This document shows, piece after piece, positions 1-41,639 of a stretch of 49,248 nt of DNA. Source of the stretch: a virus. The notes under the pieces were generated by a model, which saw only the letters and a program-made list of their open reading frames with translations, was not told the DNA's origin and made no database searches. The stretch covers positions 1 to 49,248 of IMG/VR virus record IMGVR_UViG_3300031787_000190; one strand, written 5' to 3'. The position numbers and the translations under genes were made by a program. Every line of letters begins with the position of its first letter. Positions within the stretch are counted from its first letter, which is position 1.

Positions 1-411
1 TTGACCTGATCCTTGAACTGCTTGAGCTTGTAAAGCAAGCCGTTGTCCTTGACCTAAAGTTGGATCTTCTCTAAGCTGTTGTAAGCGAGCCTGCTCAGCT
101 CCTGCAACTCTTCCAAGTCCTTGTTCAAGATTTAAACGTGTAGCAGCGTCAAAACCCCCTGCTTCCACTATTCCACTAATATCCTCCAAAGCTGCCATTT
201 GGGCTGCTTGAAGTCTGGGGTCCATTTGTATTTCTTCAAATCTGGAAGGACCGAGAGCTTCAGCTTCCAATAGTCCTACAAGTTCAGGACTCTCTAAAGC
301 AATACGCTGAGCCTCTATCGTTGGTATACCAATAGCTTCTAAGCGAGCAATGTTATCTCGCATAAGCTTATTAGCTTCTTTCATTTCACTTTTACCAGAA
401 TCCTTACTCAT
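1..411 (-). CDS. Ala/Gln-rich virion-associated protein, C-terminal part outside the window
   Basis: The ATG lies at 411-409 and the frame stays open to the window edge, giving 137 visible residues. The visible part is rich in Ala, Gln, Glu and Leu, predicts as helical, and contains a segment reading MDPRLQAAQMAALEDISGIV. Proteins with this kind of segment recur downstream of tail or internal virion proteins in metagenomic podoviruses; that is from memory, not a search. Its start overlaps the end of the upstream GNAT-like gene by 8 nt, so the two are translationally coupled. A structural or ejected virion protein is likely, but no catalytic function can be assigned. Confidence 0.6.
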   Translation of the reverse strand, partial: MSKDSGKSEMKEANKLMRDNIARLEAIGIPTIEAQRIALESPELVGLLEAEALGPSRFEEIQMDPRLQAAQMAALEDISGIVEAGGFDAATRLNLEQGLGRVAGAEQARLQQLREDPTLGQGQRLALQAQAVQGSGQ

Positions 412-3479: not shown

Positions 3480-3779
3480 ATCGGAGACTAACATCTCCTC
3501 TTTTTGCTCTTTTGGACCGTGAAATAGAGAGTTTACAAGCGAACTCGATATATGAGCCGGTGTAGGAAACGAAATACTCAACTAGGTGTCGAAAAACCAT
3601 TAAGTACCTAGCGGAAAGCCAGAGAGTTAAACAAAACGACTTGAGACTTGGAGTTTTGTAGAAAAGAGAAATTTAGGTTAAAAGCCCAAACCTTATCCCC
3701 AAATAGTTGAAAATACGTACTAAGGATCTGGTTTTACTAGTAGAGACTAAAGCTCTATATAGAGAAAACTATGTCAAAA
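3480..3779 (+). ncRNA. Candidate structured RNA, about 300 nt
   Basis: No ORF is evident between 3364 and 3779, and this part follows a plus-strand sigma70 promoter. Local helices that can be read directly: GGAGA/TCTCC closing a 6-nt loop; ACCG/CGGT enclosing GAGTT/AACTC; CTAGGT/ACCTAG; ACAAAAC/GTTTTGT; AGGTT/AACCT or the competing CCTTA/TAAGG; and GTTTT/AAAAC enclosing AGAG/CTCT near the end. There is no clear poly-U terminator, so the 3' end is a guess. Strand rests on the promoter; a structured element in the minus-strand mRNA is the alternative. It matches no RNA family I recognise. Confidence 0.5.
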
Positions 3780-4199: not shown

Positions 4200-7100
4200 T
4201 TACCTATAGCCTCTAGTAGAAACTTCTCTAGGTTCAAGCGAAACTCCAATGAGTTTAAACTCTTCTCTTGCATTCACATGAATAAATTGAACATGTAAGT
4301 ATCTACATCTAGATTTATCTCTAGGAATTAAAGTCCTTATAGGAACTTCATTACCTTCTCCTCCAAAAGTGACGTTAGCCCAACTATACCCATCCCAGTA
4401 TCCAGGACCTTTTCCTGTAAAGTCTATTGGAGAGAAATCATATGATCTATCAGAAGAGTATGCTACAGTTCCTCCCCAAAAATTGTTTTGATCAAAAATC
4501 AGTGTGCCATCTGGAACTTGTTTTGTAGACTCTGGTTTTCCAAAATGCTGTGGGGCGTATTGTACAAGACATTTAATTCCCTTGAAGAAACTAACATCTC
4601 CTTGTATAAATTTATTACTAAACTTAACTGTAATTAAATTTCCTCGTGGATTTACAGAGGTAACTAAAGTTTCGTAAACTAAAAGCTCCTCTACTTTTTT
4701 ATAATTTTTAAAACTTGTGTTAGCAAATTCACTATTTAGGTAATCTACTATAGCATTAAAATCATCCCTTAAATCAAGCAATGCAGATGAGCTTGATGGA
4801 GTCGGAACCGCTATTCCATCTGTTTGAAGTTTATTGGCTACTTGAGCAAGTTTATCTGCTAGGTTATCTCCTGTGACAGCTTTTAAAGAAATGTAATTAC
4901 TCGTAGCTAGGGTATCTCTATCTAATTTTTTTAAAAATCTATTAAACTTATTTATATCTAAGTATTGACTTTGAACAAGAACATCTCCTACTTCTAGTTC
5001 AGAAACAGAGGATATTGTGAAAGTTGTACCATTGATAGCATTCGCACCAATTGCTCTCACAATTTCTCTGTCGGCATAATCTTGCCTTTCAAAATTTTTT
5101 CTTTCTTTTAAAACATAAGGTCTTCCAGAGGAATCTCCTAAATAAATCTTGTCATCACTTGGATTCACAACACCGCAATTTGCAGGTTTTGTCCATCTAG
5201 TCCAAGTTCTGGTAAAAGTATTGTATCTAAAAGCTTGCGTTGCGTATTGATCTGTCGTCCTTTCTGGAAGCCATAATAAATAACATCTATCCGATTCAGA
5301 TGACATTCCCCAACTCATAAGCTTGTAGTCAAACTTAGCATTAGCGACTTCCTGAATCTTATTTTCAATATTCCTAGAAATAACTCCTACTCCAGTTTCA
5401 GAAACTGTTACTACACCCTGACTGGTTAACACATAAATCAGGTTATTTAAGTTAATGGCTGTGTCTGGTGCATATGTTAAAGCGGATGAATCCGATAGTC
5501 TAAAAGTGAAATTTGGAGCTGCTGGACCTGTTATAACATATACTCCATCCTCTTTAAGGACAATTAAACTATCTCGTAAAGCCATTACCCTTTGAATTGC
5601 TTTATCTCTTGGTCCAATATCCAAGTAATTTACAAGAGGTACTGATTCTGGCTGCCCTATTTTTGAAAAGTATAACCTATTTGGATTAACAGAATTATCT
5701 GATGCGACATCAGCCGCAAACACTACAGCTTGATCAAAAGTTAAATAAGTATCAGGATTAGTAAATCCGGATAGCTTAAATGATGTTATAGATGGAGTAG
5801 ATGATACTACTTTTTTACCAGTTACGATAGGGGTTGTAGAAGTTGGATCAACAAATATATACACTTGTTGTCCAGTAGTAAAATTATGACTGTAAAAGGT
5901 AGTAAATAGATCAGGATTAACAAAGTCATCGATAAGAGACGCTACGGGCAAAGAGGGTTCAAATACTGGAACATCTGTCGTATGGCTAAAGCCAAGAAAA
6001 AATTGATTATCTTCCAAAGATTTGGCTTCTAATATTAAAATACCAGGTAAATCATCTGCTCCAGATGAATAAAAAGCGTTCACTGGTGATTGCGTATCTT
6101 TGTTTATTACACGCTCTAAAGACCTGGCTGTGTCCTCTACTGATAGAGCTTGAGAAGCTAATCCTGACAGAAGCACTTCGTTTAAAGAAGCATTCTCTCC
6201 AAAACCCTCCCTAATAACAGTAGGTAATATCCAACCACTATTTACGCTGGATTGTGTAGTAACATTAACTTCGCCATTATCTTGATAAAAAAGTCTTATG
6301 TTTCCAGATGCAGGTACAAAGCTAATTCTAGAAATACCTAAGCCTAAAGATAGGTCTATTGGAGATCCACCAGATGTTAATGATATTCTAAAGTTATCCT
6401 GAGTTTTATTTATTACGTAGTAGTTAGTACTGCTAGATAATCCAGCCGGTATTGTTTCAGTAAATGTAACTAAATCTCCATTGATTAATCCGTGATTCTT
6501 TATAGAAATTACATCGGTTGAAGCAGTTATATCAGTTTCTAAATTTATATCAAAACTGGATCTATTAACTAAAATGTCTGGTATATCAAAAAAAGCATCT
6601 TCAAAAGCTTCAACAGATCCTTGCACTGTATCATCATACCCTTCCAAGGCGACACGCAATAAGATTGAATTGTCGCTTTCGGGTATTTCTGTGGTATGGG
6701 TAATGGTAGCGGTTCCTGATGCGGTCGATAGATTTAAAAAAGCACCTCCTACAGAAGTAGAAAGTTTTAAAACATTATCGCTAACTCTAGTTACATAATA
6801 AGTTCCAGCTATTAATCCTCCTGGAAGAGAAGTTCCCGATATTGATACTTTATCATTTGTAGCAAAATTATGCCCAGTTATTGTTATTTCTTCTGTGGTA
6901 GAATTAATATCAGTCTCATCAAAAACATAACTTATAGTTCCTTTGTCGAACCAAACTCTATACTTTATTTTATTTTGAGCTGTCATTATATCAAAATAAG
7001 TATTTCCTACAGTTTCTGATTTTCTTTTAGCTGTAAACTCTATAATTTCACTTTGACCTGAAAAAGTATAGCTTCTTAAAACCGATGAATTACCAATATA

Positions 7101-11687: not shown

Positions 11688-12635
11688 CTAAGCCTTAATT
11701 ATATATTTTAAATTAGCATTACTATCTGGATTTGGTAAATTAAACGTAGTAGATCCATTACCAGAGCCATAACTAGTGCTTATTATTGAAAATAAATCGG
11801 AATAGGTAGTTCTATTTACAGCAGATCCATCACAAAGCAACCAGCCAGTAGGGGCAGTATTTCCAGCATAAAGATACATAACTCCAACTGGAGTATTAGC
11901 TAAAACTGTTGTTGAAATTAAATTTTCAGCAGCTTGTGCTCTTGTGACTTCGTTATTAATAGCGGACTGTAAGCTCGAATCCCCATTTGCTCTTGATGTT
12001 ACTTCCGAAGATAAAAGTATAGCTAAAGAATCTTCGGCAGCTTGCGCTCTTGTGACTTCATTATTAATGCTTGTTGTTAATGTGCCTATTTGTGAACTAA
12101 CAGTTGAAGCAAAATTTGCGTCATCATTTAAAGCTTGCGCTAGTTCATTAAGAGTGTCTAATACAGCTGGTGCAGATGATACTAGATCTGATAATTTTTG
12201 ATCAGCATAATCTTTTGCATCCTGCAATACAACAACATCAGCAGCTTGTCTATTAGAGACTTCAGAAGAAATTGCCGAGGATAAAGAAGATTCAGCAGCT
12301 TGTGCTCTAGTAACTTCTGCAGAAAGAGCAGAAGAAATTGAAGATTCAGAAGCCTGCGCTCTAGTGATTTCAGATGAAATCTGAGATTGTAATCCAGACT
12401 CAACACCAGTAGCTCTTGCAACCTCTGTATTTATGGCAGATTGTAATGCAGCACTAGCACTAGCAATTGCTGCTGATTGAGCCTGACTAGCTTTTGTATC
12501 AGCATAAGTTTTTAAAGGAGCTTCTAAAGTGCTGACTTTTACAGATTTAGATTGTCCTCCAGTTGTAACCAAAAAAAGATCATTTTGGTCTAGTTGTGTA
12601 ATTTTTTCAGTCAATTCCGAAATTTTTTTACTCAT
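11688..12635 (-). CDS. Tail fibre with coiled-coil repeats and Tail Collar domain, 315 aa
   Basis: After a short N-terminal attachment segment (MSKKISELTEKITQLDQNDL), residues about 45-230 consist of coiled-coil repeats with recurring EVTRAQAAESSLSSAI-type units. The C-terminus (about 245-315, PVGVMYLYAGNTAPTGWLLC followed by DGSAVNRTTYSDLF) is a clear Phage Tail Collar domain (PF07484 type). Domain order is that of a trimeric fibre. It lies 11 nt upstream of the SPRY-like fibre gene. Confidence 0.75.
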   Translation of the reverse strand: MSKKISELTEKITQLDQNDLFLVTTGGQSKSVKVSTLEAPLKTYADTKASQAQSAAIASASAALQSAINTEVARATGVESGLQSQISSEITRAQASESSISSALSAEVTRAQAAESSLSSAISSEVSNRQAADVVVLQDAKDYADQKLSDLVSSAPAVLDTLNELAQALNDDANFASTVSSQIGTLTTSINNEVTRAQAAEDSLAILLSSEVTSRANGDSSLQSAINNEVTRAQAAENLISTTVLANTPVGVMYLYAGNTAPTGWLLCDGSAVNRTTYSDLFSIISTSYGSGNGSTTFNLPNPDSNANLKYIIKA

Positions 12636-12654
12636 TTAAGTCTCCAAGTTTGTA

Positions 12655-13089
12655 TTATTCTAATAACAGATTTTCACCTGATTCTAACAAAAGATTAAAA
12701 CCATCCTCTAACAATATTACAAGCTCTTCACTTTCCGAGTTGTTTAAAGTAATATCAAATTGCAAAGTATTCAAAGCACTTCTAGGCACTTCTAAAATTT
12801 GACCATCAAAATCAACAATTTGAATACTCATTATTAAAAACGTATCCCTAGCTCTATTTGATGCATAAAAATAAGAAGGAGCAAAATCATCAATACTACT
12901 AAAAGTTATTACCTTTTTTTGATTTCCTTCAGAACTTTCATAGTTCAAATTTACTAAAGACCAATTAGAAAAATCACTAAAATAAGGATCATCTGAAACT
13001 ATAGAATTATTTACCAATTCTCCTTTAAAAAGAGTAAATTCATTATCTACACCTTTTAATACTGGATTTGGTTTTGATATTATAGCCAT
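12655..13089 (-). CDS. Tail fibre attachment-module protein, 144 aa
   Basis: It is essentially a stand-alone copy of the N-terminal domain of the 334-aa protein at 10673-11677. Both begin MAI-x-x-KP with KG soon after, both have YFSD-x-x-NW near residue 38, and both share an (I/L)DFDG(Q/G)IL segment. The last 20 residues contain tandem LLLE repeats (LLEDGFNLLLESGENLLLE). It may be an adaptor linking fibres to the tail or the remnant of a longer fibre. Function otherwise unknown. Confidence 0.5.
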   Translation of the reverse strand: MAIISKPNPVLKGVDNEFTLFKGELVNNSIVSDDPYFSDFSNWSLVNLNYESSEGNQKKVITFSSIDDFAPSYFYASNRARDTFLIMSIQIVDFDGQILEVPRSALNTLQFDITLNNSESEELVILLEDGFNLLLESGENLLLE

Positions 13090-13102
13090 TTTTCCACCTA
13101 AT

Positions 13103-13126
13103 AAAAAAGGGAGGATTTCTCCTCCC
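13103..13126 (-). terminator. Intrinsic terminator after the long fibre gene
   Basis: On the minus strand, GGGAGGA-gaaa-TCCTCCC is followed by TTTTTT. It lies 14 nt beyond the stop of the 916-aa fibre gene and just before the gene starting at 13089. Confidence 0.85.
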
Positions 13127-13139
13127 CCTTTGCTAAAAA

Positions 13140-15890
13140 TTAATAAGCGTAAGTTACGAAAACTACGTCACCACTCTCAATAGCTTCAACTCCGCCAGAA
13201 GCGAAATCACCAGTGAAAGTTAAACGAGTAACTCCGTTTACAACAGAAACAGTGAAATCCTCATCTTTGTGAGCCATTAGACGACCAACAGCAACAACTA
13301 GAGAATTAGCAACAACTTCTCTTGAAAGATCAACGTGAGTTAAAGTTGTAGACATAGTAAACTTTTCTTTACTATAACCTTTTGCTTCAAGAATGTCAAG
13401 TCTAGCGTCAAGAGCATTTTCAGCAGATGTAGCGCGAGAAACTTCATTAGAAACACTTAACTCAAGAGCATCAATATCATCTTCTGCAATATCAACACGA
13501 CCAACAAGGTTAGTGATGTCGTTATTAGAATTTAATACTTGAGACTGAAGAGTAGTAATATCAGCTTCAGTTTCAGTAACTCTAAGTTCTAGAGAATCAA
13601 TATCGCCTTCAGCAGTTGTTAATCTAGAATCAAGTCCAGATTCAACTCCCATAGCACGAGATTCTTCTGCGTCAATATTAGACTGAAGAGTGTTGTCTGC
13701 AGCAATACGAGCAGACTGTTCAGTATTGATATTAGATTGAAGAGTATTATCTCCAGCAATACGAGCAGATTGTTCAGAACTTACAGCAGCTTGTCTATCA
13801 GATACTTCTTGAGAAATCTGAGATTGTAAAGAAGACTCTACACCCATAGCACGAGACATTTCTGTATCTATGTTAGATTGTAAAGTTTGATCTCCAGCAA
13901 TTCTTTCCGATTCTTCTGTATCAATATTACCCTGTAATACTAAATCAGCTGCTTGACGATCAGAAATCTCTTGAGTAAGTTGAGACTGTAGAGAAGACTC
14001 TACGCCCATAGCTCTTGACATTTCATCATCAATATTGCCTTGTAACACTAAGTCAGCTGCAATACGCTCAGACTCTTCTGTATCAATGTTGCCTTGTAAT
14101 ACAAGATCAGCAGCAATACGAGCAGATTCTTCAGCTTCAATGTTTCCAGATGAGTTCTGAGCAAGAGTATTGATCGCTCCCTGTAAGCTACCATCAGCAG
14201 CTTGGAAAGCAGAAACAATTTCTGTCAAAGAATCTAAAGCCTCTGGATCAATATTACTTAGAACATTATTGATTTGAGTTTGAAGATCAGATACTTCTCC
14301 ATCAACGTATGTTTTCGTTACAGGATCAGATTCAAGAACATCAAGTCTATCACTAAGAGATTGATCTCCAGCAATTCTAGCAGATTCTTCAGCTGAAACA
14401 GCTATTCCTCTATTAGAAACTTCTGTGTTAATTTGATCTTGAAGGTCAGATTCAACACCCATTGCTCTTGACATTTCATTATCAATGTTAGTTTGAAGAA
14501 CTAATTCTGATGCAGTTCTATCAGAAACTTCTTGAGTAATCTGAGATTGAAGTGACCCTTCAACTCCCATAGCACGAGAAACTTCAGATTCAAGATCAGA
14601 AACAACATCATTAACTTGAGTTTGTAGAGAACTCTCAACACCCATTGCTCTTGACATTTCTGTGTCAATATTACCTTGTAAAACAAGATCTCCGGCAATT
14701 CTTTCAGATTCCTCTGTATCAAGATTTCCTTGAAGAGTATTATCTCCAGCAATTCTATTTGATGTTTCTTGAGTAATTTGAGATTGAAGACTTCCTTCTA
14801 CTCCCATTGCCCTTGACATTTCAGTATCGATGTTACCCTGAAGAACTAAGTCGGCAGCTTGTCTATCTGAAACTTCTTGTGTAACTTGAGATTGAAGTGA
14901 CCCTTCAACTCCCATAGCTCTTGACATTTCAGAGTTAATATTATTCTGTAATGTTTGATCTCCAGCAATACGAGCAGACTGTTCAGAACTTACAGCAGAT
15001 TGACGATCAGAAACTTCCTGAGTGATTTGAGATTGAAGAGAACCTTCAACGCCCATTGCACGAGATTCTTCTGAATCAATGTTACCTTGAAGAACAACGT
15101 CTGCAGCCATTCTTTCAGATTCTTCTGTATCTATATTACCTTGAAGAACTAAATCAGCTGCAACTCTTTCAGACTCCTCGGTGTCAATATTACCTTGAAG
15201 TACTGAATCAGCAGATTGTCTGTCTGATACTTCTTGAGAAATTTGATTTTGCAAAGACTGATCTGCAGCAATACGAGCAGACTCCTCAGCTTCAATATTT
15301 CCGCTGGAATTTTGAGCCAAAGTGTTAATTGTACCTTGTAAACTACCATCAGCAGCTTGGAATGCAGAAACAATTTCTGTTAAAGAATCTAAAGCTGTAG
15401 GATCAATATTGCTTAGAACATTATTAATCTGAGTTTGAAGATCAGACACTTCACCGTCTACATATGTTTTAGTAACTGGATCTGCTTCAAGAACGTCTAA
15501 ACGAGCGTCTAATCCACTTTCAGCACTCATAGCACGAGACATTTCAGCGTCTATATTGCTTTGTAATGTCTGGTCTCCAGAGATACGAGCAGATTCTTCA
15601 GAATCAATGTTTGACTGAAGAGTTTGATCTCCAGCAATTCTAGAAGATTCTTCTGAATCAATGTTGTCTTGTAAAGCAGCTCTTACAGATTCAATCTGAG
15701 AGTTTACATCTTGTACAAAAGCAATTTCATTACCAGAAGATAAAAGTTTTCCGTTTCCATCTACGGATAGGAGGTTAAATTCTTGTCCTTGAGAATTTTC
15801 CATCCTTAATGTTTGACCATTTAGAAGTTTAATTTTCGAACCATCGATGGCATCCGATTTAATAAACTTCTTTTTAATTTGTTGAGCCAT
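13140..15890 (-). CDS. Long coiled-coil tail fibre, 916 aa
   Basis: I start at the ATG at 15890 (MAQQIKKKFIK), which has a GGGGAGAG ribosome-binding site; an upstream in-frame ATG would overlap the preceding gene. Most of the protein is a rod of short repeats of the type ESARIAGDQTLQSNIDSEES, consistent with a trimeric coiled coil. A unit of about 80 residues (DPVTKTYVDGEVSDLQTQIN ... NSSGNIEAEESARIAAD) occurs twice with few differences, around nt 15270-15520 and 14110-14350. The last 80 residues (KFTMSTTLTHVDLS ... VVFVTYAY) form a beta-rich tip. A strong terminator follows. Likely a main host-contact fibre. Confidence 0.75.
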   Translation of the reverse strand: MAQQIKKKFIKSDAIDGSKIKLLNGQTLRMENSQGQEFNLLSVDGNGKLLSSGNEIAFVQDVNSQIESVRAALQDNIDSEESSRIAGDQTLQSNIDSEESARISGDQTLQSNIDAEMSRAMSAESGLDARLDVLEADPVTKTYVDGEVSDLQTQINNVLSNIDPTALDSLTEIVSAFQAADGSLQGTINTLAQNSSGNIEAEESARIAADQSLQNQISQEVSDRQSADSVLQGNIDTEESERVAADLVLQGNIDTEESERMAADVVLQGNIDSEESRAMGVEGSLQSQITQEVSDRQSAVSSEQSARIAGDQTLQNNINSEMSRAMGVEGSLQSQVTQEVSDRQAADLVLQGNIDTEMSRAMGVEGSLQSQITQETSNRIAGDNTLQGNLDTEESERIAGDLVLQGNIDTEMSRAMGVESSLQTQVNDVVSDLESEVSRAMGVEGSLQSQITQEVSDRTASELVLQTNIDNEMSRAMGVESDLQDQINTEVSNRGIAVSAEESARIAGDQSLSDRLDVLESDPVTKTYVDGEVSDLQTQINNVLSNIDPEALDSLTEIVSAFQAADGSLQGAINTLAQNSSGNIEAEESARIAADLVLQGNIDTEESERIAADLVLQGNIDDEMSRAMGVESSLQSQLTQEISDRQAADLVLQGNIDTEESERIAGDQTLQSNIDTEMSRAMGVESSLQSQISQEVSDRQAAVSSEQSARIAGDNTLQSNINTEQSARIAADNTLQSNIDAEESRAMGVESGLDSRLTTAEGDIDSLELRVTETEADITTLQSQVLNSNNDITNLVGRVDIAEDDIDALELSVSNEVSRATSAENALDARLDILEAKGYSKEKFTMSTTLTHVDLSREVVANSLVVAVGRLMAHKDEDFTVSVVNGVTRLTFTGDFASGGVEAIESGDVVFVTYAY

Positions 15891-15906
15891 TAGCTCTCCC
15901 CTTTTT

Positions 15907-16284
15907 TTAGTACTGAACAATCAGTACATCTGTATTATCTAAGAATCCTTCCAACCCTTTATCCTTCCATGAAATCTTATTATCGATAATTTCGTAATCA
16001 ACCCCATTAACTTGAGGTATTCCACCCTCTGGAGTTACAATAACAGCACTAGAAATTAAGGGTGTTTGCTGTAATGTCACAAATCCGTCATCGATATTTT
16101 GTTGCGTTAATTCTATATTTTCTACAATAAATCCAGAAGTTGCGCCAACAGGAAAACCACCTAAATTATTTCCATCTCCACCAAAGAAAGCTTTTTTATC
16201 TACATCATAAACCAATTCACTAACTTCTAGTATAAGATTATTTCTCTGTGCTGTTGTAACTTTTGGTGCTTTAAATATCGCCAT
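15907..16284 (-). CDS. Fibre protein with major-tropism-determinant-like N-terminal domain, 125 aa
   Basis: Residues 1-50 (MAIFKAPKVTTAQRNNLILE, then SELVYDVDKKAFFGGDGNNLGG) match the N-terminal attachment domain seen in many fibres, in which a strand reading 'YDxDxxxxFxGDG' is diagnostic. The remaining 75 residues predict as beta strands and a short tip. The protein is short for a fibre and may be a base or hinge subunit. Its start overlaps the end of the 61-aa gene upstream. Confidence 0.55.
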   Translation of the reverse strand: MAIFKAPKVTTAQRNNLILEVSELVYDVDKKAFFGGDGNNLGGFPVGATSGFIVENIELTQQNIDDGFVTLQQTPLISSAVIVTPEGGIPQVNGVDYEIIDNKISWKDKGLEGFLDNTDVLIVQY

Positions 16285-37304: not shown

Positions 37305-37481
37305 TCAATCCTTATACTTTTCTTTTAAAGCTTCGTAACGTGCTCTTTTCTTAGCCTCTAATCTTTTCATATCTTCAGGCAGTTCAGGTTCGGGTTCAGG
37401 CGGATTTCTAGGAATACGCTCTTCATCGCCCATTATAGAGTAAAACAAATCTTCTAGCAAGTTACTTTCAAATTTCTTCAT
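37305..37481 (-). CDS. Small charged protein, 58 aa
   Basis: Not covered by longer ORFs. Reads MKKFESNLLEDLFYSIMGDE, then ERIPRNPPEPEPELPEDMKR and a basic coiled tail ending KEKYKD. The ATG stands 2 nt after a late-promoter-like motif, so the message would be almost leaderless. If transcription starts after TATAGG, translation could begin only there or at Met17. It overlaps nothing and lies 1 nt before the Cys/Lys-rich gene. Confidence 0.45.
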   Translation of the reverse strand: MKKFESNLLEDLFYSIMGDEERIPRNPPEPEPELPEDMKRLEAKKRARYEALKEKYKD

Positions 37482-37540: not shown

Positions 37541-37569
37541 TAGACAAACATCCTGTTTTATGCTAAACT
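37541..37569 (+). promoter_or_regulatory. Sigma70-like promoter of the right arm
   Basis: TAGACA, 17-nt spacer, TAAACT at 37564-37569. It is the first plus-strand promoter after the divergence point, followed by the gene at 37609. Confidence 0.5.
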
Positions 37570-37589
37570 ACCGTTTATGCAGGTTATAT

Positions 37590-37604
37590 AACCCCCTTAG
37601 TAGG
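37590..37604 (+). promoter_or_regulatory. Plus-oriented late-type motif AACCCCCTTAGTAGG
   Basis: It reads the opposite way to the left-arm copies, directly upstream of the ATG at 37609, and is preceded by a 12-bp palindrome GGTTATATAACC. The AGTAGG part also provides the ribosome-binding site. Confidence 0.4.
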
Positions 37605-37608
37605 TAGG

Positions 37609-40377: not shown

Positions 40378-40418
40378 GTAGTTATTCGAACAACACAACG
40401 CATAACATGGAGAACAAT

Positions 40419-40622
40419 ATGAATACACTTTATCCATACAGAGCTTATTTAACCGGTCAAGCTAGACTTGAGGCAAAACAGAGCCAATGGAGTTTTTTAG
40501 AATCCGATCAAGTTAAGGCCCTAGTTGAGAAATACGGAGACAGTCTGCTAGTTGATGTTTGGGATGGAACTAAGTACGTCCCAGTGAATGAAGAGCAGTA
40601 TAACTCAATCGTGGAGGCATAA
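40419..40622 (+). CDS. Hypothetical protein, 67 aa
   Basis: ATG 40419 has GGAG seven bases upstream; the in-frame ATG at 40407 has none. Mixed helix and strand (VKALVEKYGDSLLVDVWDGT). Function unknown. A 16-codon ORF follows directly. Confidence 0.5.
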   Translation: MNTLYPYRAYLTGQARLEAKQSQWSFLESDQVKALVEKYGDSLLVDVWDGTKYVPVNEEQYNSIVEA

Positions 40623-40623
40623 C

Positions 40624-40674
40624 ATGAAACTAACAACCTACAACTCACTAAGACAGAATTTATTGCTAAAATAA
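40624..40674 (+). CDS. Sixteen-residue ORF
   Basis: ATG 40624 with an excellent GGAGG six bases upstream; reads MKLTTYNSLRQNLLLK. It ends just before the hairpin that terminates the opposing RNA. It may be a leader peptide or the stub of a lost gene. Confidence 0.3.
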   Translation: MKLTTYNSLRQNLLLK

Positions 40675-40726
40675 AAAACCCCAGGGGCTTCATCCTGCCG
40701 AAGCAAGAGATTGGCCGATCTGGGGT
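40667..40726 (-). terminator. Intrinsic terminator of the long minus-strand RNA
   Basis: On the minus strand, ACCCCAG ... CTGGGGT forms a 7-bp outer stem enclosing a GCTTC/GAAGC hairpin, followed by TTTTTATTTTAG. On the plus strand no T run follows, so it works only leftward. Confidence 0.7.
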
Positions 40727-41280
40727 ATGACAAAATCATTATCGACTATTTTTAGATAAAACTCAAGACTCTAAAGTATCGTATAATCAAAGGGATAAGG
40801 CCGATCAGGTAACCAACAAGACGATTGCCAACGAGGGAATGCTAAGAGACTTAGTTTTTCCCTTATTACCTACCATCGAGATCTCGGCCGTATACACGCA
40901 CTGGGATCTCTTCTTTTTATCCAATTGGAACTTATAAAGCTTTTTTGTTGATCAGAAGACATAATAAGACTTAAGAGTATCGATATTTTTCGTTTAGCTT
41001 AATCGACATGGGGCTAAAACTAGACACTTGACCTAAGAGCGTCACGTTTTAAAGATATATGAGATAAGGCCGTTTCCATCATCTCAACTCACTGGATTGG
41101 TTGACCATGTGAGGGACTATTTTTAGTCCTTTATTTAGTGTGTGGCGAGTTTATTACTCTCGCTCTCTGCACTCTTCGGGGTTGATTTACCTCATTTAAA
41201 ATGCCCTGGATCAATGCCCGAAATACCTTTAAAAAGATGGTCCTTATCAGCTCTCTTTTCACGCTTTATGGAGTCACCTT
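40668..41280 (-). ncRNA. Candidate large structured RNA, about 610 nt, with late promoter and terminator
   Basis: No convincing ORF lies between 40675 and 41426. On the minus strand the region starts at an exact late-promoter motif core (41282-41297) and ends at an intrinsic terminator. In between, many helices read directly. CGGG/CCCG plus TTGAT/ATCAA enclose CATTT/AAATG (41220-41176). GCGAG/CTCGC lies at 41163-41145, GGACT/AGTCC at 41129-41114, and GAGAT/ATCTC at 41085-41061. GGCCGA/TCGGCC and AGGTAA/TTACCT enclose AGGGAA/TTCCCT and CTAAG/CTTAG (40889-40799). This is the size and style of giant ornate phage RNAs such as GOLLD or ROOL; identity with either is not claimed. Confidence 0.6.
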
Positions 41281-41281
41281 C

Positions 41282-41297
41282 AATAAATAAGGGTGTT
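41282..41297 (-). promoter_or_regulatory. Late-promoter motif AACACCCTTATTTATT
   Basis: The first eleven bases are exact. It is the only minus-oriented copy in the right arm, and no minus-strand gene lies downstream, which leaves the structured RNA as its product. Confidence 0.6.
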
Positions 41298-41368
41298 TTA
41301 AATAGTGTCACTAAGGCATGGAATTATTTGGAAAGGTGTGTTATTTATTCATTGTGTCAAAATAAAGC

Positions 41369-41397
41369 TTGAACTGCTTTTAGTTTTCGCTTATTAT
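41369..41397 (+). promoter_or_regulatory. Sigma70 promoter
   Basis: TTGAAC, 17-nt spacer, TATTAT; start expected about 25 nt before the ATG at 41427. It stands roughly back to back with the late motif at 41282. Confidence 0.6.
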
Positions 41398-41426: not shown

Positions 41427-41639
41427 ATGTTTACCGAACTACAGAAAAAAAGCCTTGAGAATCTTAAGAAAATAGCTGATGAAATTGAAACTCGAGTTGT
41501 TATTTATGGAGATCAGTTTGGCCCATCAGATGAGCATGTTTTAAAGCTTAAAAATGAGCTTTATGAGGTTAACCAGCGCATTCTTAACCTTATGGTGCTT
41601 GAACAAGAAGATCGCGTAAACAACGCTATAATTGAATAA
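41427..41639 (+). CDS. Hypothetical helical protein, 70 aa
   Basis: Strong ribosome-binding site (AAGGGGATTTT before ATG). Coiled-coil-like throughout (TELQKKSLENLKKIADEIET, LKNELYEVNQRILNLM). It precedes the DUF932-like gene by 13 nt and is probably co-transcribed. Function unknown. Confidence 0.55.
   Translation: MFTELQKKSLENLKKIADEIETRVVIYGDQFGPSDEHVLKLKNELYEVNQRILNLMVLEQEDRVNNAIIE

Follow-up and report, generated by a model that had tools for sequence, protein, structure and literature searches.

A conserved structured RNA in an uncultivated phage and its relatives

The minus strand of an uncultivated phage carries an RNA whose secondary structure is conserved with many compensatory changes. 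Its overall length is roughly 330–620 nucleotides, and it is conserved by shape in six phages. We are practically certain that this is a real structured RNA. The best explanation overall, which we favor with some reserve, is a stand-alone noncoding RNA gene of an unlisted structured RNA family that would serve as a scaffold in trans.

Genomic site and homologues

The window, which is the whole stretch of DNA analysed here, is an IMG/VR virus record of 49,248 bases. Its minus strand carries late virion-type genes (portal, terminase, major head protein, tail proteins) up to position 37,481, and small early-type genes follow on the plus strand from 37,609 on. The late genes 11688–12635 and 13140–15920 hold many diverged 54-nt repeat units (11926–15657), perhaps a repeated fibre domain. 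In the early arm, about 800 nt without a convincing gene are flanked by the plus-strand genes 40407–40622 and 41427–41639. This stretch contains no conserved ORF; the small ORFs 41142–41372 (plus) and 41131–41262 (minus) are absent from the homologues. ARAGORN finds no tRNA or tmRNA gene in the 49-kb window.

The family consists of six uncultivated phages: the window, the close relatives L071, L076 and L100, and the distant relatives L032 and L017. Relatives were obtained by terminase and DNA-binding-protein searches of viral contigs; among named phages, the closest terminase, at 30% identity, belongs to a phage from Silvanigrella. The gene-less stretch in L071 and L076 has 71–72% DNA identity, and the member in L100 was found by pattern, as the only new member from the other pattern and protein scans of viral contigs. 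In L071, L076 and L100, the RNA occupies the same site as in the window, each time adjoining a homologue of the 41427 gene. L032, with a terminase identity of 45%, gave a weak match to a profile of the four close members. The 846-aa terminase ORF of L032 (8759–11299, plus) has an insertion resembling an intein that includes a homing-endonuclease part. With R1, a covariance model built from four members on the 324-nt core, L032 scored 66.8 bits and L017 50.6 bits, with E-values of 1e-18 and about 1e-14 for the two distant phages. In both, the RNA lies where early and late genes diverge and is directed toward the late genes; all six RNAs are oriented in the late-gene direction.

A covariance search along the full length of about 135 virus records returned no further member, and the weak matches at 11.9 bits, the best non-member, and 9.5 bits were rejected. 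A motif scan of 2.1 Mb for CAGAGA, a five-pair stem and CACA retrieved precisely the six members without mismatch. BLAST searches of INPHARED phages and PLSDB plasmids gave no credible relative. Scanning 84,980 genomes of bacteria and archaea for the pattern gave 13 matches, about the chance number estimated from the gap lengths, and these were discarded.

Covariation and fold

Covariation was evaluated on A4, a four-sequence MAFFT alignment made without structure. Its 14 helices are paired in 94.0% of cells. The original prediction had named covariation in related phage genomes as its test and a conserved ORF as its refutation; 38 of 90 pairs in A4 are double-changed in one or more sequences, compared with 14.4 (sd 2.6) in shuffled alignments, none of 500 being as high, and no conserved ORF is seen in the homologues. 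With partners slid, only 1–6 pairs are double-changed. RNAalifold independently reports 40 compensatory pairs out of 86. For helices registered by hand in up to six members, with the structure known and two of the six members registered in this way, 394 of 400 cells are paired (98.5%), compared with 62.6% when strands are swapped between members; double changes occur at 56 of 73 positions.

G-U pairs exceed A-C mismatches by 21 to 3 on the hand-registered helices and by 22 to 11 on the unadjusted alignment, and the RNA is therefore on the minus strand. The folding energy of 607 nt has z = −2.9 for the minus and −4.6 for the plus strand, so that energy alone leaves the choice of strand undecided. 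Strong covariation together with the G-U asymmetry bears out the earlier proposal of a stand-alone structured RNA on this strand.

The common fold consists of a 5′ hairpin, a ten-base-pair long-range helix that closes a five-hairpin junction, two more hairpins and a loop pseudoknot. All coordinates refer to the minus strand of the window, where the conserved core of 324 nt, defined by A4 and R1, spans 40958–41281. The 5′ hairpin P1 (41233–41281) is formed by GAAGGTG.CTCC/GGA.CATCTTT with the apical pairs AGC/GCT and the conserved loop GTGAAAAGAGA. The apical pairs change in a compensatory manner to GAT/ATC and GGC/GCC, and the loop sequence GUGAAAAGAGA is conserved in five of the six members. 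A first guess for P1, AAAGA/TCTTT, was dropped for the longer helix given by RNAalifold. The long-range helix P2 pairs 41223–41232 with 41058–41049 (3′ strand 41049–41058), as seen in both hand registration and the A4 test. Among the six members, nine of its ten positions show double changes, the strands being TTAAAGGTAT/ATATCTTTAA in the window, AAACAAGTTT/AAACTTGTTT in L071 and TGTAATGTAG/CTACATTACA in L032.

P3 (41176–41221) contains P3a TCGGG/CCCGA and P3b TTGAT/ATCAA around an internal loop AGGG/AGGTA. P4 (41137–41173) has an outer helix AGTG/CACT, an asymmetric loop CAGAGA/CACA and an inner helix GCGAG/CTCGC. This loop is the strongest invariant of the family: it is identical in all six members, while both flanking helices vary. 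The following hairpins are P5 (41114–41129; GGACTA aaaa TAGTCC), P6 (41090–41110), whose loop TCAACCAAT is kept in the four close members, and P7 (41061–41085; TGAGAT/ATCTCA). P8 (41023–41043; GACGCT/AGTGTC) has the loop CTTAGGTCA, and P9 (40992–41019) pairs TTTTAGC with GCTAAAC. The P4 and P8 loops and the P1 loop are likely contact sites. The pseudoknot (40979–41007) joins the P9 loop GTCGAT (41007–41002) to ATCGAT (40984–40979). In the window and L076 it reads GTCGAT/ATCGAY, in L017 GTATTAG/CTAATAC; L071 and L100 have a T-T mismatch at one pair, and L032 has no clear counterpart. The conserved single strand ACTCTTAAGT (40969–40978) follows.

The 3′ domain (40812–40957) is shared by the window with L071 and L076 only, with pairing and compensation read by eye. 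It includes P12 (GAGATC/GATCTC, 40910–40905 with 40883–40878) and P13 (GGGAA..CTAAG/CTTAG..TTCCC, 40862–40835). The nested helices noted earlier, GGCCGA/TCGGCC and AGGTAA/TTACCT, are present in the window, but L071 and L076 gave no counterpart; the hairpin of 5+5 bp inside them is kept in both. The weak points of the fold are P11, which is mismatched in two members, the one mismatched pseudoknot pair in two members, and the 3′ domain, which comprises three members.

Promoters, transcript ends and timing

The RNA is preceded by a late-type promoter motif AAAACACCCTTAT (41299–41287, minus), recognized by motif count. Allowing up to two mismatches, AAARCACCCTTAT has 14 matches in the window against 4.4 expected, a number reached by none of 100 shuffles. 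Seven strong copies sit 28–73 nt upstream of minus-strand late genes, and the copy at 41298 is the sole close copy without a minus-strand gene inside 3.8 kb. Its weight-matrix score is near background (9.8, compared with 8.2 for the best unrelated site), and the stronger argument for this copy is its conservation before the RNA in L071, L076 and L100. The late-promoter motif without a downstream minus-strand gene, as originally described, thereby stands, with no minus-strand gene over 3.8 kb.

At the other end, a candidate intrinsic terminator (40670–40726) consists of the 7-bp stem ACCCCAG/CTGGGGT (40726–40720 with 40685–40679) and the U-tract TTTTTTATT. The stem and U-tract agree with the earlier claim that it is valid on the minus strand only; terminator-like sites in general are not commoner than by chance. 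From motif to terminator, the gene-less stretch on the minus strand is about 615 nt long, as had been anticipated, and none of its small ORFs is kept in the homologues. The predicted transcript of about 612 nt would run over 40670–41281, with its start placed by promoter spacing and the first base of P1. The term giant, applied to this RNA at first, fits the window's own transcript, which alone reaches about 615 nt, but not the conserved core of about 325 nt.

The two distant members have promoters of another type. L032 has a perfect TTGACA-18-TATAAT whose end is 9 nt ahead of the RNA, and in L017, TTGTCA-17-TATAGT with a preceding TG lies just upstream. The late-type motif of L017 differs in sequence (TTTTAGCAACTATATTATAG, 4 sites against 0.01 expected); copies occur at 3570, 6391, 10131 and 11768 (plus), three of them directly before late genes, and the one at 3570–3589 separates the RNA from the first late gene. 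Judged from these motifs, each of the six RNAs appears to have its own promoter. Late expression is quite probable in the window clade. Since the two distant members carry sigma-70-type promoters, late control would be confined to this clade and does not extend to the family at large; by promoter motif, the original prediction of a late RNA holds for the former only.

Two further kinds of element were noted. At the early/late junction of the window, a palindrome (37568–37607) with TATAACCCCCTTAGTAGG on the plus strand resembles the late motif ahead of the first early gene, and its sequence also occurs in L076 at 1474. Sigma-54-like TGGCAC-N5-TTGCA lies inside the RNA of L071 and L100; we rejected it as a conserved feature of the RNA, as it is absent from the window, L032 and L017 while the helix stays. 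Clusters of TGGCAY-N5-TTGCA are found in the window (37748, 39789 and 39881, plus; 3 against 0.2 in shuffles), L073 (2454–2520; 7 against 0), L071 (41–111), L140 (2208–2267) and L032 (4155, 4311). They adjoin a C-rich tract of the early arm in the window and L073. The elements in L073 are in tandem, about 25 bp apart, which is odd for promoters, and a decoy array or iterons are possible.

The shared site, function and comparison with known RNAs

In L004, L073, L074 and L075, whose terminases are about 89–90% identical to that of the window, the same site holds a different gene-less element, RNA-B. It follows a similar promoter-like motif and is conserved at 69–93%. RNA-B was located at 4446–4163 (minus) in L073, 2255–1972 (minus) in L075 and 119–403 (plus) in L140, and three sequences show 18 compensatory pairs out of 96. 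Against Rfam it gave sub-threshold chance matches only, and an unfiltered R1 search gave at most 0.7 bits, so that RNA-B was rejected as a distant homologue. Since close relatives carry either the window-type RNA or RNA-B there, the site seems to serve as a slot that takes structured RNAs.

This exchange bears on the main rival, a late-made RNA that disables host or phage proteins or excludes competitor phages. The presence of either RNA at one site, beside homologues of the same gene, resembles an accessory module. Against it, the RNA as a whole has a fold of greater complexity than known protein sponges; we regard this reading as rather unlikely. A packaging or motor RNA, functionally like phi29 pRNA, is improbable. 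The late-type promoter would fit its timing, and in each of the five members with terminase located, the RNA lies upstream of the terminase genes and reads in their direction. Sister phages with about 89–90% identical terminase carry the unrelated RNA-B instead, however, and the window-type RNA is therefore not needed for the shared packaging genes; nor is there a match to Rfam.

That the RNA is a leader or riboswitch acting in cis on an operon downstream is very improbable. In L017 and L032 the RNA is directly upstream of co-directional late genes, but the four close members have no gene in that direction, their nearest genes being convergent early genes. We conclude that the RNA is not a leader, because no minus-strand gene follows within 3.8 kb and, in L017, a separate late-type motif precedes the first late gene. 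A DNA-level element such as a replication origin or packaging site, with inverted repeats mimicking RNA helices, would suit a location near or at the early/late junction, a frequent place of origins; it is hardly credible given the G-U excess, which is not expected of DNA, a ten-pair helix spanning about 170 nt with a pseudoknot, and a promoter motif at the RNA 5′ end. Equally implausible is translation of a small peptide, (V/M)KRE....IF..V, at the 5′ end: short ORFs of 24–43 codons start with GTG in the four close members and with ATG in L032, but they vary in length, lack a well-spaced Shine-Dalgarno sequence and have no counterpart in L017, and the conserved letters coincide with the apical loop of P1 and its strands.

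A stand-alone RNA gene is supported by the promoter motif common with late genes in the clade, the lack of a conserved ORF and the lack of a co-directional gene downstream. Such an RNA would be transcribed together with the virion genes from the late-type promoter, end at the intrinsic terminator and fold into a compact multibranched molecule with a pseudoknot. The folded RNA may then act as a scaffold in trans, binding a protein or its own copies, during virion production or lysis. This role is suggested tentatively by analogy, without kinship, to GOLLD and ROOL, for which a folded-scaffold role in trans has been proposed (PMC12286853). The RNA may represent a novel type of phage RNA machine without relation to known RNAs, having a promoter of its own and an invariant contact motif, in a slot where related phages swap structured RNAs. 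If true, nothing comparable would be known for its task in virion production or lysis. Few classes of large structured phage RNA are described; GOLLD and ROOL are the examples identified here, and both form RNA cages. To these, the present RNA adds a separate family whose fold is worked out, together with a compact core of 325 nt, a clear promoter motif and a defined swap site, and the role of large folded phage RNAs becomes testable with a comparatively small molecule.

At gathering threshold, none of the 4227 families of Rfam 15 (including phi29 pRNA if among those families) matches the window, in line with the idea of a new class. Relaxed E-values of up to 10 gave sub-threshold chance matches only, for window and homologues. 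The covariance models of GOLLD, ROOL and OLE are each unmatched, and the RNA is therefore none of these; together with the lack of nearby tRNA genes, this speaks against the suggested kinship with GOLLD or ROOL.

phi29 pRNA has a length of about 120–174 nt. It is likewise a phage RNA from its own gene, with a possible tie to virion assembly; pRNA is much shorter, and the present RNA has no Rfam match and is not bound to one terminase type. OLE is also an ornate RNA of about 600 nt, but it occurs mostly in Bacillota genomes and has protein partners (PMC12054373), and its model does not match the present RNA. GOLLD is a large structured RNA borne by phages and prophages that rises during lysis (PMC12286853), with which the late-type promoter motif is compatible. 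Size, structure and phage origin are shared, but GOLLD often exceeds 800 nt and is frequently, not universally, near tRNA islands, while the window has no tRNA genes and another fold. ROOL is phage-borne with a complex fold and pseudoknots, with an example of 659 nt (PMC12286853), and is similar in full-transcript size. In contrast to the present RNA, ROOL is often near tRNA islands. ROOL forms an RNA-only homo-oligomeric cage. We class the RNA as a new family within a known general kind, the large structured phage RNAs.
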